From Paraphaeosphaeria minitans (lineage: Eukaryota; Ascomycota; Dothideomycetes; Pleosporales; Didymosphaeriaceae): 64,000 nucleotides of DNA. Where the stretch lies: the NCBI GenBank assembly GCA_015832175.1, contig WJXW01000012.1:1074001-1138000 (forward strand). The letters are read 5' to 3'. Below the pieces are notes generated by a model. It saw only the letters and a program-made list of their open reading frames with translations. It did no database searches and was not told the origin of the DNA. How positions within the stretch are numbered: the stretch's first letter is position 1; every line of letters begins with the position of its first letter. Position numbers and translations under genes: made by a program. This document shows positions 43,345 through 52,948 of this stretch, one piece after another.

Positions 43345-43621
43345 GGTAAGTGAGCTGTGCTGTGGTGAGGAAGGACGGTGGCTACGGTACCTACAGGCGG
43401 GATATCCTCGGCGGAACCTTTTCTAGGAAGGACCCCAGACAAACCATCCACGGCGACGGCGTTTGGTCAATCTGCGTAGTCTGTCTCCTCCTGTGCATAC
43501 TTCCCGAGTAGATATCCATTGCGTGGTGACATCAATTACCACTACCAATGGTGCCCGCACTGCGCCCGACGGGCCACTTCTATGCCGCATTTTATCGCTG
43601 GAGCTGTTCTACTGGTAGGCA
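43345..43621. promoter_or_regulatory. Shared upstream region of bL31m and the flavin-reductase gene
   Basis: 277 bp between two divergent start codons. It must contain both promoters unless the right-hand gene has an unseen upstream exon. No defined motif is recognised. Confidence 0.5.
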
Positions 43622-46255
43622 ATGTACTATACGAGTATAGCGACACTGCTGTTTACATATTCCCTAGTCCGAAATCCTCATTGCAGTCGCTCCCTTCGCC
43701 GTTGCCCGTCTTGCTTCACTGTCGGTCGCGCCGGCCACGCATATTCAACGACCAGACCGCTCCTGAACAACAATGCTGCGGCTCCAGCTCCCAAAGCGAG
43801 TCGCAGCGAGAGTGGCTCAACCTCAGCAGATCAGGAGGCGACCGTCCAAATGAAGACTGACATGCGCAGCATCATGCGCCAAGTTCCGAGCAGCGTCACC
43901 GTCATAACTGCCTTCGCGCAGGACGGGGACATGCGGCCTCTTCCCCTCGGAAGTGCCATATCCTCCTTAACCACCGTTTCGCTCGACCCGCCACATGTGT
44001 CATTCAACATCAAACCACCATCAAGAACGCTCGACGCAATCCGCGAGGCGGGAGGCCGATTCTGCCTTCATTTCCTCGACAACTCGCTTCTTGCCGCCAA
44101 GGTTGCCCTGGACTTCACCAAAGGGAACTCACTCGATACCTTGCGCCGACGACGAGCATCATTTAGTTTCGCATACCCTACCACCAATCAGGTGGGACAG
44201 CCCCCGAGACTCAACGCTCGCTGCGTTGTTGCTTCTATGACGTGCCAGTTGGAACAGGAAACTGCCGTGGCGGATCACGTTGTCGTTATAGCAAGTGTGA
44301 AGGAACTTGATGCCATACAAAATCCGGGGCCAGTCCTGTTCTATCACGCAGGGAAATTCAAGAGATATAACGGCGGCACGTTGTACAGTCCGGCCTCTGC
44401 TATCCGCGGCCAGGAGTTAGATGTGCCGACCCTGTTGCATCGTGAAGGAGAATCGAAGGGAAATGACGGCTCCACGTTGCAGAAACATTTGCCCTTTGAG
44501 GAAATGGCCACTGCCCGCCCTCGGAACCTAGCTCGTTTGAAAGGTCACGCCGCTTATTGGACCTACCCGCTATTTCCAGGAGATGCTGAGAAGGAGGACT
44601 TCATATCCCTTGCCAAAGACTACGTGAAGCAGAACCGAGCTTCATTCCTCGAATCTCCTTCCGTCCCAGGCGGAACAATATTGAAAGACGGATGGGGCAT
44701 ACATCCTGGAGCCTTTGGTTTGAACCTCACTCGGCTCGTGGGCCAAAGCATGGCCGAGCTCGGTCTGGACTCAGATCAGGAGCCAAGTCTTCCTACTGCC
44801 TCCCTCACCCATCGCTTCTACGGGAAGCTAAGTCCGACTGATCTTACCGCGATAGGAGACCATGCCAAGGCTCTGGTCAGACACAATCTAACGGCCGTAG
44901 ACGGAGACTACCTCAAAGTTCTAAATTCGCTCGACGTGTGTCCTGGGGGCACTAGTTTGCTCGCTAGCGACATTCTGGTGCCTTTACGCGACGCCGGCTT
45001 GATCGCACCCTTTGAGCTGCGCAGCCTTGAACCCACAGATACCCTGGACCTTTACTACTTGGAACAGATCGAACACCGACTGTCCGAGTTTTTTAAGTCT
45101 ATACCTTACGAACAAGTATCTCGTATGGGGCTAACCAAGCTGCAAAGTGCTATAGGGATCAATGCTGTAACGCTAGAACACTCTCATGTGGATTATGTGC
45201 AGCAGGTACGCCCTCGTATAACAGCAGAAGTGTACCCGGAAACATTCTCTCCACCGCAAGTCGACCTTAGGGGTCAAATTTCGCCAGAGGAGGTCCGCGT
45301 TGCAGTTGAGCGCATGGTGTATGCTTTTTCAGTGCGCGATACTCATGCCTACTCGATCTTCAGAAAACTACCCAAGGCCGAGAGCATGCGCCGACTGGGG
45401 ATACATCCTATGGCCACGGGCGCAGATCTCGACTTCCTCTGGGAGAAACTGAGATACATGCGGGCGAAAGCAATAACACACACTGCATTCGAAGAAGCCG
45501 TGGACACGATGCTGGATCCCTTATTCGACAAGGGCTTATCCACGTCAGAGGAGCTCTACTCGCGAGCCAGGAAACTGGTCCGTCTACACGCGCGCAGCGT
45601 CCTGAGTTGGTCGCTCAGAGACATAGTCGCGGCCATGGGGCTCCGCTACGGCGTTGCGGGGGTACTCCACGACTCCAAAAACATGCATGTTCGCAGCTTG
45701 GTCAAACAGGCCTTCAGCGCGGCGCTGCAAGCGAGGATGCAGGACGACGACATTTCTGTCGAGGACAAGACTGCGATCGAGGAGTACTTATCTTCTTCTC
45801 ACACGCTCAAGACCAGGCCAAGCATCTGGAGTTGGGACCAGACCCGTCGGGTTGAGATGGAGAAGGTGAGGACCGAATGTACAAGGAAGAAGAAGAGGGA
45901 GGAGAAGGACGAGAAGTTGAAGAAGCAGAGGGAGGAGGAGGACAATATGATAAGGAAGAAGAGGAAGGAGGAGGATAGGCTGTTAAAGAAGAGGAGGAAT
46001 GAAGAGGACGAGAAGGGGGGGGAAGACGAAAAGTTAGGGAAAAGAGAGGTGGAGGACAATACAATAAAGCAGAATAGGAAGGAGGAGGACAAGCTGTTAA
46101 AGAAGAGGAGGAAAGGGGAGGACAAGAGGTGGGAGAAGATGGTTGAGGGTATGCTTGAGGGGAGGAGGAAGAAGAAGAGAGAGGAGGAGCTAAAGAAGAT
46201 GAGAGAGGAGGGAAAAGAAGAAGAGGAGGAGGAGGCTATAGTCGCGGGAGGCTGA
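43622..46255 (+). CDS. Flavin-reductase-domain protein with long C-terminal region and Lys/Glu tail
   Basis: An intronless 877-aa frame. Residues about 1-75 are Arg/Ser-rich (GRAGHAYSTTRPLL), suggesting a mitochondrial presequence. Residues about 80-250 form a flavin reductase-like FMN-binding split barrel (MRSIMRQVPSSVTVITA, then SLDPPHVSFNIKPPSRT, FCLHFLDN, and the late FYHAGKFKRYNG). Residues about 290-740 are a mainly helical region I do not recognise. From about 745 the tail is almost only K, R, E and D with repeated KKRRxEED units, a predicted long charged helix. The family uses FMN and reduced nicotinamides; whether this member is catalytic or a scaffold is open. The next in-frame ATGs are at residues 77 and 81. 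The 3' end faces Ski3. Confidence 0.8.
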   Translation: MYYTSIATLLFTYSLVRNPHCSRSLRRCPSCFTVGRAGHAYSTTRPLLNNNAAAPAPKASRSESGSTSADQEATVQMKTDMRSIMRQVPSSVTVITAFAQDGDMRPLPLGSAISSLTTVSLDPPHVSFNIKPPSRTLDAIREAGGRFCLHFLDNSLLAAKVALDFTKGNSLDTLRRRRASFSFAYPTTNQVGQPPRLNARCVVASMTCQLEQETAVADHVVVIASVKELDAIQNPGPVLFYHAGKFKRYNGGTLYSPASAIRGQELDVPTLLHREGESKGNDGSTLQKHLPFEEMATARPRNLARLKGHAAYWTYPLFPGDAEKEDFISLAKDYVKQNRASFLESPSVPGGTILKDGWGIHPGAFGLNLTRLVGQSMAELGLDSDQEPSLPTASLTHRFYGKLSPTDLTAIGDHAKALVRHNLTAVDGDYLKVLNSLDVCPGGTSLLASDILVPLRDAGLIAPFELRSLEPTDTLDLYYLEQIEHRLSEFFKSIPYEQVSRMGLTKLQSAIGINAVTLEHSHVDYVQQVRPRITAEVYPETFSPPQVDLRGQISPEEVRVAVERMVYAFSVRDTHAYSIFRKLPKAESMRRLGIHPMATGADLDFLWEKLRYMRAKAITHTAFEEAVDTMLDPLFDKGLSTSEELYSRARKLVRLHARSVLSWSLRDIVAAMGLRYGVAGVLHDSKNMHVRSLVKQAFSAALQARMQDDDISVEDKTAIEEYLSSSHTLKTRPSIWSWDQTRRVEMEKVRTECTRKKKREEKDEKLKKQREEEDNMIRKKRKEEDRLLKKRRNEEDEKGGEDEKLGKREVEDNTIKQNRKEEDKLLKKRRKGEDKRWEKMVEGMLEGRRKKKREEELKKMREEGKEEEEEEAIVAGG
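45858..46245 (+). repeat. Purine-only coding repeat (KKRRxEED units)
   Basis: Nearly 390 bp of AAG/GAG/GAA/AGG-rich sequence with almost no pyrimidines on the plus strand. Two related longer units are seen at about 45954 and 46072 (each with AGGCTGTTAAAGAAG or AAGCTGTTAAAGAAG). It encodes the charged tail of the flavin-reductase protein. Such tracts expand easily and can form triplex DNA. Confidence 0.75.
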
Positions 46256-46834: not shown

Positions 46835-49800
46835 TCAAGCCCTCGACATGCACTCCCGCAGCGCTCCCCATCCCTCCATCCGCCACGGCGCAAGCACCAC
46901 ACTCCTTTGTGCATCTGCCACAACCCCCGTCCCCACCACCGCATCTGCCAGCCCCCGCGCATCCAACCCCCCGACGGGTGGCACACTCTGCCCCGCCGTC
47001 TCCCGTGCCATCACCGCCGCGAAAGCGCCCTCCTCCGCCGCACCAGCCAACTCTTTCCACCCATTGTGCTTCCACGGCGCGAGCATGACACTCCGCCTCG
47101 CCTCATCCAACTCATTCTCCTCGCCGCCGAGCACCACAGAAATAGCTTCCAACACCTTCTCCACGCGCGCAAGATCTTCTGGCGAGACATCCACCGCCGT
47201 ACGCAGCGCGTCGAGATCCTCCTTCACCGCGGCCATAGTGTCCTCGTCCTCGTCCGTGACCGCCATCGCTCCAAGCAGCGTCACGATGCCGACGTGGCGC
47301 CCGTGCGTCTCCACCGCCGCGAACAGCTGCTCGCGCGCAACGTCCTTTTCGTTGGCGCCGCCCTTGGCCCACAGCACCTCCGCGAGGAGGCAGATGATGT
47401 CAGGGTCGGATTTTGTGGCGGAGAGGCACTTGCGGAAGTACGGAATTGTGGCGTCGAGGTCGCCGTGGAAGTAGTACGCGAGGCCAGCGGTTAGTCTTGC
47501 CGACAGAGTCGTCTTGTCAAAAGCGGCGGGAGAGAGCACGGCGGCATTTGCTTGCGCGTCGAAGTCGGATAGGAGCTCAAGTGCTGTTTCGGCTTCTTCG
47601 ACGGCGGCACTGTAGGAGCCTGTTGCGAGGAAGTTGCGGGCGAGGTCGTTCTTTGCCTTAGCAAAGCGAACGAGAGCAGAGAGCGACTCGGAGGTTTCGT
47701 AGTCTTGCTCTGCGACCTCGCAGATTGTGGTGAGGGCTTGGATGGCGGAGTCATGGTTGCCGATGCGCTCGAGGAAGAGAGCGGCGAGATGCTTGTGCGG
47801 GATGTCGTATGGTGCTTGGAACCCTAGCTGGTGAAGGGCGAACAAGGGTTGTATAAGGTTGGTGATGTTGCTTGATGCGGATGGCGAGGAGATCAAGAAA
47901 TCGAAAGTCGACATGGCATATTGGCGCTTGGTGATCAACGACGATGAGTCTGAAAGCTCAAACGCATGTGTAAAGTGCGAAAGCGCTTCCGTTGTATCGC
48001 CAAAGAGTAGTGCGACAATGCCTTCTCCTACCCATGCCAAGGCGTAATCCGGATCCTGAGACTGTGCACGGGAAAAGGCTTGGTGTGCGAGTTCAGTGTC
48101 GTTTTGGAGCAGGTAAAGAGTACCCAGGTTAGTCCATGCGCGAACACTTCGCTCGTTCAAATGCAGAGACCGAACGAAGGCATGTTGAGCAACCTTGGGG
48201 TTGAGTGTGGTGGTGATGACGCCAAGGGAGTTCCAGAACTCAGAATTGCCGGCTTCCAGCTCGATGGCTCGCTTGAAGCACCGCATTGCTGCTCGGAGAT
48301 ATGTAGTGAGGCTCGAATCTTGGGCGACTTCTTGCTCCAGGCAGACGTGGGCGCGGTATTCGGTCCAGCCCAGGTTGTACCATGCGACGGCTTGCGCATG
48401 GATGTCGTGGGCACAGCTTGCAATTGCACGCTTGTGCGCGAGTATCGAGGCTCTTAGCACTGTCGATAAGGTTGAGGGTTTCTCCGATGAGAGAGCAGCG
48501 AGATCGCCAGCGCCAATGCCGTCAACATCTTTATGGACATCCCAATTCAGCTCGATGTCCGACTTGCTGTTCAGCAATGTGGCCACCTGGCTACCCGGAT
48601 ACTGCTGCAGTTTCTCTTGAACCCAAGTGAAAATACTTAAAGCATCACCGACGGCTTTCCACAGATTGAACGCATCAGGTTTGTACTCCGCGATACCAAG
48701 GGCGACATCAATGGCCCGGGTGGCGCTGTCTGCCGCCTCACCAAAGAAGCCGGTTTCAATGCACCGCCAACCCTTTTCCACCAGCGTCTGTACCAACGCG
48801 ATTGAAACTCCAAACTCCTGAGGCCGCTCTTTGAGGACGTCTTCATATCCCCCAATGGCCTCATTGAACTCGCTGAGTTCGCGGTTGACGTTCGCCAGCA
48901 TGTATTTCGCGAACCAGCCCTCGCTGTCTGCCTTCTTGATTACTACACCATTGGAAGGGTTCTCAGCATAGTTGAAGGCTTTCGCGGCGGAGTTATAGCG
49001 ACCTGAGTTATGGTAGCTCTCGCCGAGACCAATATACGAATGGTAGTCGTCGGGGCTGATGCGGAGGGCCGATAGAAACGAAACAATGCTCTTCTGGAAC
49101 TCCTGCTTGTTCATCTGCACAACTCCAAGCGCGGAGAATGGCCAGCTGACACCCTTCCTCTTCGAACCCGGCGCGGTTTTGACTTTCCCGGAGTCTACCA
49201 CTCTCTGTGATATCACTTCAACGATGTCCCATTCGCCTTGATTGGCAAACAGACGTGCCAATCTCTCTGCTGCAACAATCTCTGAAGGTGACAGCTCAAA
49301 AGCTTTCTGAAAACATTGTCTCGCGCGCCGCTTGTCCTTGTTGTACACTTCGTAAAAGATGCCGAGCTTAGTATATGCAGGTGCAAAGTTAGGGTTCGCC
49401 TTAATGGCAGCCAAAAACTTCGCGTAAGGCCCTGAACGATCGCGACGGGCTGCTTTTGACGAATCGAGTTCCCACATGCAAACACCTATTCTATACAGTG
49501 TTTGCGCCCGGAGCTCGCGGCCTCGCGGTTTCAATGCATCTAGTTGGGGGTACTCAAGGTAGTCTTGGAGTCTGGAGAGACCGGTCTGATAGTCGCCACT
49601 GAGGGCCTGGCACCAGGCTGCCTCTGCGCCGATGCGGCCGTTCGCCGGGTCCTGCTTCAGTGCTTTCTCAAGGAATTCTACAGCATTGGCGTATTCTTCC
49701 TCCTCTTCTAGAATAAGTCCAATACCAATCAGAGCTGCAGTGAACTGAGGTTTCCGCTTCAGTATAGATTCGAAGATGCCTTTTGCCTCAAGATGATTCC

Positions 49801-50306
49801 TTGGGGTCTGGTAGTAGACTAGTGCTGTTCCCAATGTGCTATTCAGTGCATCTCGCATCCTATAGAGGTCAGCTCAAGCTTCAGAACTTGCAGATGAATT
49901 CCTACCTTTGGAATGACAAGTGTGTCCTCTTCGCCTCCGTAGCCGCGAGCCGCAAACCCTTCCGTGTAGTCTCGACGGCGATTTCATACTCCTCCAGAAA
50001 CAAATAAAATTCCCCAAGTAGACAATGTGCAAGGGCTGAGTTCTTCGCATCCTCGATGCCCTCGGTCATCAGCATTAAGCAATCCTCTTGCGTGAGTGGC
50101 TCATTCTGGCTGAGCGATACCCCACCCTCACTAAGATCTGGGGCGTCGGCGCTTTCAACTCTGAAGGGATAACGAGACAAGCCGCTACTCAAGTAGCCAG
50201 TGATGACCTTGGAGAGGCCTTCATCTGGAAAAAGCTCGACATATTGGCGTAATGTCTGAATGTCCAGGTCTAGAAAATCGTGTGCGCTGTTTGCGTGTGA
50301 CGCCAT
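46835..50306 (-). CDS. SKI3: Ski3, C-terminal part, as a separate gene
   Basis: Predicted 1141 aa: exon 1 49906-50306, exon 2 46835-49859. The intron (GTAGGA...CTCTATAG, 46 nt) keeps frame at SFQ|RMRDAL. After a short novel start (MASHANSAHD) the sequence enters the Ski3 TPR solenoid in mid-gene (LRQYVELFPDEGLSKVITGYLSS). It continues through LGTALVYYQTPRNHLEAKGIF, RIGVCMWELDSSKAARRDRSG, FAPAYTKLGIFYE, RARQCFQKAFELSPSE and YHSYIGLGESYHNSGRY to a normal C-terminus. Ski3 is the TPR scaffold of the cytosolic Ski2-Ski3-Ski8 helicase complex that feeds mRNA to the exosome. This part should contain the C-terminal arm that holds Ski2 and Ski8 but lacks the N-terminal roughly 287 residues, encoded divergently from 50623. 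No internal stop or frameshift is seen. Confidence 0.88.
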
Positions 50307-50622
50307 CGTAGGCGAAACGGAGAAGAACAACAGTAAATGGATGAAATCGGTCTGAACGCAAACACAGAGAGAGAGGACTGAACAAACTATGCGTGGCCTG
50401 AAGTACGTGGAGTGAAAGATCCCGAGGTCAGTGGACGTACAGTCAGCGGGGTGTCAAAGTGTCAACATGAGGCTCGTAGGGCTGAATTAAGCTCTGCCTA
50501 GCGCGGGGGACGTCATACATTGCACCCAGCATTGCCGCGTCTCTCGCGTCCATGGCAAACAAATAACCCTGCTGCGCGCATTGCGCCTCTCTTCCCACTT
50601 CCAACTACTTCGATCCTTCGCT
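50307..50622. promoter_or_regulatory. Shared 316-bp upstream region of the two Ski3 parts
   Basis: It lies between the ATG of the C-terminal part (50306, minus) and the ATG of the N-terminal part (50623, plus). If the inversion model is right, it is the original Ski3 promoter, now turned round and also driving the C-terminal part in the opposite direction. No motif is assigned. Confidence 0.5.
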
Positions 50623-51539
50623 ATGTCGACCAAAGCAGCACTCAAAACTGCCAAGGCGGCCATCGACGCCAAAAAGTGGGATGAAGCCGTCGAACAAGCG
50701 AACGCCGTGCTCGCAAAGGACCCGGAGAACTACTTCGCGAAGCTGTTCATGGGACGCGCGCTGGATGGCCTGGGGAAACTAGATTCGGCTGCACAGGCGT
50801 ACAATGACGCGACCAAGATCAAGCCCCAGGATCCACAGGCATGGCTAGGACTGAGGGGATTGTGCCAGAAGCAGGGAAAGGCGAAGGTGGATGAGCGGAT
50901 CGACGTCGAGCTGCAGTTGGCGCAGATATACGCAGAGCTGTACGTTCTCCCAACCAGACCATGTTATTGTGAGCAGCTTCTGACCTTTATAGTGACGATG
51001 CACACAAGGCGCAGACCGCCATCGACAGCCTCGTCGACCACGCAAGGAAGCACGGGACGAAGCTGCAATATGCCCGCGCCCTTGCCCTACAGACGCCCAG
51101 CTCGCCCATCTATTCCTATCTCGAGGGTCGCCTACCCCAGCCCGCCGCCGTCTACACGCGCCTCGCCGACATCTACGAAGGCGAAGAAACGGCTACCATC
51201 AAGCGCCAGATCGACGAGCGCAGGTCCAGGCTCGGTGCGACACTCGAGGGTACGACAGCAGAAGTCAAGAACGAGGTATATGGTGCAAGTCCATTGGAGG
51301 ATATCTACCAAAATATCATCGATTGGACAAGCGATGATACGCTAAGGAGGGAATACGAGGAAAAGCTGTTGCAGAGGGCATACGATACGCTGCTTGTGTT
51401 GCCAGCCGATAAGAAGGAGGACAAGAGAGAAAAGGTGATCAAGCTGGCGCACGACATGGTCATCATCAGACACCCGTATCCGCTTGCTTGGCAGATAGAA
51501 CTCGAATGGAGGTCGGGGCTTGCGGTGGAGGTGTATTGA
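50623..51539 (+). CDS. SKI3: Ski3, N-terminal part, as a separate gene
   Basis: Predicted 287 aa: exon 1 50623-50939, exon 2 50993-51539. The 53-nt intron has GTACGT and TTATAG ends, phase 2, and the join keeps frame (YAEL|DDAHKA). It starts exactly as fungal Ski3 (MSTKAALKTAKAAIDAKKWD, the first TPR) and passes GRALDGLGKLDSAAQAYNDA, QTPSSPIYSYLEGRLP and LRREYEEKLLQRAYDTLLVLP. It stops after VIIRHPYPLAWQIELEW with a short unrelated tail, RSGLAVEVY. In other fungi the sequence runs on into the segment found on the opposite strand at 50306. The N-terminal arm of Ski3 is the part linked to exosome/Ski7 contact. 287 plus 1141 residues equals a normal full-length Ski3. Confidence 0.88.
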
Positions 51540-51674
51540 AATACAGCCGAAGTGGAAGGGTCCTAGTTCGAGCAGCTTCTCGAAACCGTATATTCTGAGG
51601 ATGTCGATACCATGAACTCGCATTGCAAAACTCAAATCCCAAGCCTGAACACCACTCATTCAAGCTTTCGTGCC

Positions 51675-52258
51675 CTAACCAGTCGCATTGACGGTCCTCC
51701 TCTTCTCTTCAGCCGAATAGATGCTCGAACCCTGTTTCAACGCATGAATCAGCATCTTCAAACTGCTGTCCTTGAAGTCCTGCGCGTCGCGAACTTTGAC
51801 GAGGTCATCCGCAAGCTCTGTCGTGATCTTTTTCAGGTAAATGGCGGAGAATTCTTCCGGGTCCTTTGGCAGTGCCTTCGCTTTTGCGGCGACTGGAGAT
51901 GGTGCTGTAACCGGTGCCGGTGACAGTGATGTAGACGCAGATGAATCTGAAGATGGTGCATCATGTGCGTCTGTCATGGAAATGTCGCCATTTTGAGGAG
52001 CGGGTGCCGGTTAACAAAGTGAGCCTACGTCGCAGAGGGTTGGGTTTACAGACAAACCTACCACTTTGTTGGTCTTTTTGGACTGCTTGATGTTCTGCTG
52101 GTGCGTGTCGCTGTCGCTTTCTGAAGACGACGAAACTTCGACTACAAATGTAAGTCACGTCCTTCCCAAATTGGGCATGACATACCCTTAGTTCGGCTCT
52201 TGCTCTTCTTCTTACGGCCTCGCTTATCCGCGCCTGCTGCTCCTCTTGCTGGCGCCAT
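51675..52258 (-). CDS. RSA3: Ribosome assembly protein 3 (Rsa3)
   Basis: Predicted 150 aa in three exons: 52186-52258, 52058-52141, 51675-51970. Intron 1 has GTATGT and TTGTAG ends. Intron 2 needs a weaker GTTTGT donor to keep frame, so that donor is less certain. The N-terminus is a basic nucleolar-type stretch (DKRGRKKKSKSRTK), followed by an acidic serine run (SSSSESDSD). The C-terminal roughly 60 residues are the Rsa3 domain: EFSAIYLKKITTELADDL, then VRDAQDFKDSSLKMLIHALK and GSSIYSAEEKRR. Yeast Rsa3 is a nucleolar factor of 60S subunit assembly acting with the DEAD-box helicase Dbp6. It ends 136 bp from the stop of the Ski3 N-terminal part, facing it. Confidence 0.85.
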
Positions 52259-52948
52259 GGTGCGATATTTTTGGTAAGTTAGGAAAAGAAGTCTTCCATT
52301 GGTATCTTAGCGGCACGTGATGATGTACCTAATCGGGTATAGCGTGCCACGAGCCCGCTATTTCTCTCACAGATACTCGAGTGCGCCTTTACCTCCTGCA
52401 ATCCGTACTCTACCCTCTCTGAAGACGTTATCGATACGTTGCCTTATTCCGATCGTGATGTCGCCTACTTTGCATGTGACCGCGCGTAGCACAGCCTCAG
52501 CCTTGTCATTTTCGGGCTACTCGTTTTGATTCAGTCCGATCAGCTTGCGATCCTGGATGTCTATCCGGATTCCTTCAAAGATGTAGCATCGCTCGGTGTA
52601 CACCTTCAGAAAAACTCAGTAGTGTACAACGATAATCCCCGCGACCAACGTGGAAGCATCACCCATTTGTGGATTGCATTGGAATATCTGCGAAGCCTAG
52701 GTGATGCATGGGATATGTAACTTGCGGCAACCAGACTAGAACAATATTATTAGTACGATCACCCTTTTCGCAGCCCTGTGAACCTTTCCGGGGTTGTCAA
52801 AATAACACCGCGCGAGGAGCTTCAACGGTCAACCGATCATCGAGAGCCTACAAGCATACAGAGTTTAAGGCATGTTAGACTGCACGTTTCATTTCACCGA
52901 TTTCTGATATTTTCTCAAGACAAAACGATGACCCTACGATCTTCGAAC
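52259..52948. other. Intergenic region upstream of Rsa3, no firm gene
   Basis: 690 bp between the Rsa3 start and the F-box stop. Small frames occur on both strands. A minus-strand stretch at about 52370-52610 reads two open segments separated by one TAG (KVYTERCYIFEGIRIDIQD and ENDKAEAVLRAVTCKVGD) that look moderately protein-like. I recognise no family and no splice sites that would remove the stop, so no CDS is called. Confidence 0.4.

Follow-up and report, generated by a model that had tools for sequence, protein, structure and literature searches.

How can a protein that other fungi make as one long chain be encoded by two genes that read away from each other, and what would the products of such genes form? 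The question is raised by Ski3, the tetratricopeptide repeat (TPR) scaffold of the SKI complex, in a 64,000-nucleotide stretch of Paraphaeosphaeria minitans DNA (contig WJXW01000012.1 of GenBank assembly GCA_015832175.1, positions 1,074,001 to 1,138,000), called the window hereafter, from whose first base all coordinates are counted. Here two intact genes in head-to-head orientation encode Ski3, their start codons lying 316 bp apart. P. minitans belongs to Pleosporales, in the subclass Pleosporomycetidae (NCBI taxonomy), and comparison with other fungi supports the view that one ancestral single-gene Ski3 underwent fission, outgroups being unsplit.

An earlier note on this DNA had described two divergent, intact reading frames of 287 and 1141 residues and had argued that they are not in decay. 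The coordinates proved exact to the base, and both halves are intact and kept across the clade. The N part comprises 287 codons, with its stop codon at 51537-51539, and the C part 1141 codons; neither spliced frame contains an internal stop, and GC content at third codon positions is 0.71 (N) and 0.63 (C). A P. minitans database protein has exactly the sequence of the N part, and the top match of the C part is also from P. minitans. The features of the locus are as follows.

50623-50939, plus strand: exon 1 of the Ski3 N part, corresponding together with exon 2 to yeast Ski3 5-292
50940-50992, plus strand: N-part intron, 53 bp, GT-AG
50993-51539, plus strand: exon 2 of the N part including the stop codon, with a match to PF18833 (TPR_22)
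51513-51539, plus strand: C-terminal tail gained by the N part (8 residues plus the stop), following the ancestral ELEWR
50307-50622, no strand assigned: shared intergenic region, 316 bp, presumed bidirectional promoter
49906-50306, minus strand: exon 1 of the Ski3 C part, with a new start Met at 50306
50277-50306, minus strand: N-terminal head gained by the C part, MASHA(D/N)SAHD
50184-50264, minus strand: two-helix hairpin, C residues 15-41, which ends the N-terminal arm in unsplit Ski3
50112-50141, minus strand: linker motif PDLSEGGVSL, C residues 56-65
49860-49905, minus strand: C-part intron, 46 bp, GT-AG
46835-49859, minus strand: exon 2 of the C part including the stop codon

Both parts are homologous to Ski3 along their length. 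In phmmer searches N residues 4-279 aligned with yeast Ski3 5-292 (E = 6e-19) and C residues 71-1024 with yeast Ski3 405-1331 (whole-sequence E = 2e-106); yeast Ski3 was the top match for both, and N followed by C is colinear with it. C residues 10-57 aligned weakly with yeast 296-344 (5 bits, not significant alone). The N arm has the Ski3 fold: its structure model (predicted local distance difference test, pLDDT, 92.6; predicted template modelling score, pTM, 0.84) found yeast Ski3 (4BUJ_B) as its top PDB match, with a template modelling (TM) score of 0.80 on the query over 292 columns. What is encoded is not one continuous Ski3 polypeptide; with two genes on opposite strands, Ski3 is split. 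A second intact Ski3, which the earlier note had named as a refuting finding, was absent from the 47.45-Mb, 30-contig assembly searched with each part, where a single weak 25.5-bit TPR match was found besides the locus. Ski2_N (PF17911) is present in the genome (140 bits against a cut-off of 23.1).

The split is conserved in Pleosporomycetidae, which settles the earlier question of whether it is common to related genomes. A protein search with the N part alone, which could return only proteins of 158-502 aa, gave 156 matches, the best 120 of which were analysed. Among these, 98 were at least 275 aa long and 92 were 281-292 aa, the remaining 22 being 3 short models and 19 fragments. All but one end 3-15 residues past ..EW (119/120, with 94/120 at exactly 9), the exception, P0100, being a model that ends early. 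Separate N parts occur in many fungi that we take to be Pleosporales, including Alternaria, Bipolaris, Pyrenophora, Plenodomus, Didymella, Melanomma, Delitschia and Zopfia. They occur as well in Glonium (Gloniales) and Lophium (Mytilinidiales), both Pleosporomycetidae (NCBI taxonomy); no Hysteriales species appears by name among the listed matches. The C-part search gave 1513 matches, and the best 120 were again analysed. None of these 120 reaches 1300 aa; 77 begin with the conserved head and 43 do not, the latter being mostly metagenome predictions of 975-1069 aa whose start lies within the protein, together with two, P0127 and P0194, that extend into the promoter region.

By species name, an N part could be paired with a C part of about 1140 aa in 41 Pleosporales species, and both new ends, the N tail and the C head, are conserved as protein sequence across them. 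In 38 of the 41 pairs the halves lie on contigs of equal size, taken as the same contig; the other three have differing contigs, two of them coming from different assemblies by their tags and the third (Alternaria rosae) having adjacent tags. Metagenome N/C pairs were found on equal-sized contigs down to 5,933 bases. Locus tags of the halves are adjacent in 5/5 genomes with sequential tags for both (J4E91, J4E90, J1614, IAQ61 and ACET3X). Numbers in the style of the Joint Genome Institute, which we take to be non-positional, were left out of this count. Gene order in Dothideomycetes is described as reshuffled mainly by intrachromosomal inversions (PMC3516569), and the N and C genes have stayed linked despite this class-wide reshuffling.

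Unsplit Ski3 was sought with a joined probe of which only the N region was scored, candidates being limited to 777-2473 aa. Of the 62 matches, 9 were other TPR proteins and 53 were Ski3 (822-1641 aa, 45 being 1383 aa or longer). Each of the 53 continues at least 579 residues beyond the break, 47 of them being aligned through it, in agreement with the earlier statement that in other fungi the two segments are adjacent in one protein. The 31 named hosts belong to Botryosphaeriales, Venturiales, Mycosphaerellales, other Dothideomycetes, lichens and Penicillium; presumably none is a member of Pleosporomycetidae. In a FastTree tree of the 53 unsplit proteins with 45 split N parts, 0/53 fell inside the split clade. 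A quick IQ-TREE tree of 49 split N parts and 34 chosen unsplit proteins gave one change to the split state, with a Shimodaira-Hasegawa-like approximate likelihood ratio test (SH-aLRT) value of 95, and placed Botryosphaeriales as neighbour of the split clade (SH-aLRT 81). Since all 53 unsplit proteins lie outside the split clade, a single fission is placed on the Pleosporomycetidae stem. Fission is further indicated by the single gene of the outgroup and by the start and stop codons that each part has of its own, kept over time; both parts are under purifying selection as judged at the protein level.

Published phylogenies include Pleosporales, Mytilinidiales and Hysteriales in Pleosporomycetidae, with Botryosphaeriales next (PMC7325674). 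One dating puts the Hysteriales-Pleosporales split at 236 (188-300) Myr and the Dothideomycetes crown at 263 (216-313) Myr (PMC7912389), and a further source makes the main Pleosporales radiation younger, at 133-97 Myr, a date that it calls sampling-affected (PMC3516569). By the former dating the fission appears to have been retained for more than 200 million years, and both pieces of Ski3 appear to have been kept since before Pleosporomycetidae diversified. A recent strain-specific inversion or pseudogenisation was considered and rejected, since both proteins, with ends like those here, recur in dozens of species. As the split is an old state conserved in a subclass, misassembly and decay in sister strains are no longer at issue; that the layout is an assembly error or annotation artefact, for which nothing speaks beyond its oddity, is scarcely credible given those other species.

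Where the chain was broken bears on what the halves could form. The junction of unsplit Ski3 mostly reads LAWxIELEW(R/K)DVExLxxxDxxxLREYxxFFP; split N parts end in ELEW plus about 9 residues, split C parts start with MASHADSAHDLLDLDI followed by the ancestral helix, and hardly any ancestral residues have been lost. The earlier note had put the breakpoint between two TPR units of the solenoid, a placement contradicted by the model of P0280, an unsplit relative (822 aa; pLDDT 88.2; pTM 0.73; four best PDB matches all yeast Ski3). In that model the break falls in a loop between helices 234-242 and 254-263 of the N-terminal arm; past it come helix 268-277, a stretch (288-303) with pLDDT below 50, and then the next helices. 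The arm loop that holds the break is thus followed by a hairpin and then by a disordered linker, so that the two final helices of the arm stayed with the C gene, tied to the scaffold by the linker.

Human SKI3 has been described as having an N arm (TPR 1-8) that is flexible in all structural data and is unmodelled for that reason, with TPR 9-40 scaffolding Ski2 and Ski8; the N-terminal region of Ski2 binds Ski3 (PMC8860381). The boundary of the human arm may correspond to the linker seen here. The description of the N part as an "exosome-facing arm" in the earlier note finds no support in the human structure, in which SKI7 is bound to SKI3 at TPR 29-30, in the C arm; budding yeast differs from human in SKI7 binding, according to the same source (PMC11540850).

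Conservation around the junction was compared between split and unsplit proteins in overlapping windows. N residues 253-279, the edge facing the C part, form the slowest N stretch in the split clade (0/253 windows slower), and in unsplit Ski3 38/253 windows are slower than the same stretch; by entropy, 0/253 windows are lower in split and 57/253 in unsplit proteins. A slow-down relative to unsplit Ski3 as strong as that of this stretch occurs in 7/253 windows. N and C branch lengths correlate (r = 0.89), alike in split and unsplit Ski3. On the C side, the linker motif P(D/N)L(S/T)(E/D)GG(V/I/A) is present in 81/81 split C proteins covering the site, 79 of them reading exactly PDLSEGGV(A/S)L. 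The strict motif occurs in 0/53 unsplit Ski3 proteins and a looser GG(V/I/A)xL in 8/53, including Venturia. PDLSEGGV(A/S)L is almost invariant inside an otherwise fast-evolving linker.

We consider it probable that a single old fission left divergent halves whose chains re-dock as one Ski3 in the usual SKI complex. One Ski3 gene would have broken once on the Pleosporomycetidae stem, most simply via a local inversion, with breakpoints inside Ski3 and upstream of its promoter, that would have turned round the promoter and the first ~279 codons. The halves would in this way have become divergent genes, here on a common 316-bp promoter, and each would have acquired its short, now conserved end. 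The N chain may fold as the N-terminal TPR arm, its last helix (LAWxIELEW) docking on the two-helix hairpin at the start of the C chain, and a flexible linker would tie that hairpin to the Ski2/Ski8-binding solenoid. The predicted product is a four-gene SKI complex (Ski2, Ski3N, Ski3C and Ski8) doing the usual 3'-to-5' mRNA decay. Gene comparisons and structure models lend indirect support to assembly of the two chains, and we infer the inversion mechanism, a conserved head-to-head order, co-expression, docking and function along with it. The inversion proposed in the earlier note fared unevenly: one local inversion would give the layout, and 49500-52500 holds no footprint of it, the best of the 19 short inverted-repeat pairs there, 25 nt at 80%, not lying at the edges.

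A further idea, which we advance tentatively, is that the N arm is an exchangeable subunit that docks on the hairpin and PDLSEGGV(A/S)L, so that SKI might switch between N-loaded and N-free forms, for example through phosphorylation of the motif. If this were true, co-translational mRNA decay could be regulated in a way that a one-chain Ski3 does not permit.

Several observations weigh against a single fission followed by re-docking. The C-side hairpin is averagely conserved (475/1103 windows slower in split, 720/1103 in unsplit proteins), and the degree to which it has slowed against unsplit Ski3 is unexceptional, with 96/1097 windows as low. Relative to C, the N part changes faster in the split clade, at a tree-length ratio of 0.98 against 0.72 in unsplit Ski3; this could reflect some relaxation after the split, but the comparison is biased because N similarity served to find the unsplit proteins. 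Support for the split node is only 0.73 in the FastTree tree with all 53 unsplit proteins. The C parts of Glonium and Lophium are absent among the 120 C proteins listed of 1513, and the N listing is likewise the best 120 of 156. The head-to-head order was seen in P. minitans only, its relatives being judged from tags and equal-sized contigs.

Among the alternatives, an inverted-order duplication of Ski3 followed by complementary loss of halves would give the same final layout as an inversion, and the missing inversion footprint suits it as well. It needs more steps, almost no overlap or loss is seen at the junction, and a genome search at E 0.001 revealed no trace of another N or C half, although a trace of such age could have disappeared; we regard it as unlikely. 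Quite unlikely, in our judgement, is that the N chain left the SKI complex to become a free protein with another role, with the C chain alone serving as the Ski3 scaffold. The relatively faster evolution of N after the split favours such an exit, as does the flexible, unmodelled N arm of the human SKI structure (PMC8860381). Against it, the N stretch that became most conserved is the edge once turned towards the C part, N and C branch lengths correlate as they do in unsplit Ski3, and linkage of the genes persisted in a class where inversions have reshuffled gene order (PMC3516569).

Trans-splicing of two transcripts into one full-length mRNA has a precedent in Drosophila mod(mdg4). Here the halves are close and on opposite strands, and C exon 1 carries TTTTCTAG immediately before the ancestral codons. 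Such splicing would nevertheless discard the N tail with its stop codon and the C head with its Met, both conserved in the paired species, and the three GTs past the ELEW codons (GTCGGG, GTGGAG and GTGTAT) are what we take to be poor donors by consensus. It is thus very improbable that one full-length Ski3 mRNA is made in this way; as a trans-spliced gene of the mod(mdg4) type, which would show splice signals and no conserved separate ends, the locus was rejected.

Within the intergenic region, LIQPYE, read from the minus strand at ~50449-50514, is met again ahead of the C part in the metagenome protein P0127, and a short word recurs in P0194. The upstream residues of these two proteins match the intergenic region over 23 columns (61%, E 0.011) and as a 6-residue word (E 0.27), respectively. 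The segment is a candidate conserved promoter element, and the resemblance suggests, though it does not prove, the same gene layout in the source genomes of the two proteins. Relatives' DNA of the locus was sought in viral and genome contig collections, which gave 2 and 7 pattern matches, none encoding a relative.

The right-hand neighbour of the N part is the RSA3 ribosome-assembly gene (51678-52010, minus strand; PF14615, 62 bits). At 43619-46252 there is an 878-aa open frame with a flavin reductase domain at residues 86-249 and a long, repetitive, Lys/Glu-rich C-terminal end. Positions 1-40000 are an AT-rich block (GC 0.25-0.35 per kb) that ends sharply at ~40 kb, ~7 kb from the Ski3 C gene. 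The dinucleotide bias of this block is of the repeat-induced point mutation type in 10/10 4-kb bins, with TA/AT of 1.70-2.11 and (CA+TG)/(AC+GT) of 0.32-0.43.

A core mRNA-surveillance scaffold thus appears to have run as two chains since before a large subclass radiated. The locus offers an ancient fission of a nuclear gene, bracketed by outgroups, its two genes linked in genomes that reshuffle gene order, and it may provide a natural separation-of-function pair in which the N arm can be deleted as a gene with the Ski2/Ski8 scaffold untouched. Some individual pieces are already named 'Superkiller protein 3' in source annotations; an earlier report of a split Ski3 was not found among the titles and opening lines of abstracts listed from the open-access literature, which is no proof of novelty.

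Yeast Ski3 and human SKI3/TTC37, known from the Ski2-Ski3-Ski8 complex (4BUJ, 7QDR and 9G8O), are one chain, whereas here there are two, with the division lying within the N-terminal arm. The two halves match yeast Ski3 in its own order. The nearest unsplit relatives are the Ski3 proteins of Botryosphaeriales (Macrophomina, Phyllosticta, Diplodia and Aplosporella), with 58-60% identity in the N region; these differ in being one protein, of 1419-1641 aa among the proteins compared, without the new ends and without the PDLSEGGV motif. A natural nuclear gene fission with reassembly has been described for Doa10, a membrane ubiquitin ligase, in Kluyveromyces (PMC3464245). As with Ski3, this is a fungal nuclear gene fission that yields two fragments from one locus, in that case at the base of a genus, and the C-terminal fragment is driven by a promoter in the 508-bp intervening sequence that separates its open reading frame from that of the upstream fragment. 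The Doa10 fragments have been shown to assemble into an active enzyme (PMC3464245); for the Ski3 chains assembly is a prediction. Unlike split-Doa10, Ski3 is a TPR scaffold with divergent halves, and its fission extends over a subclass.

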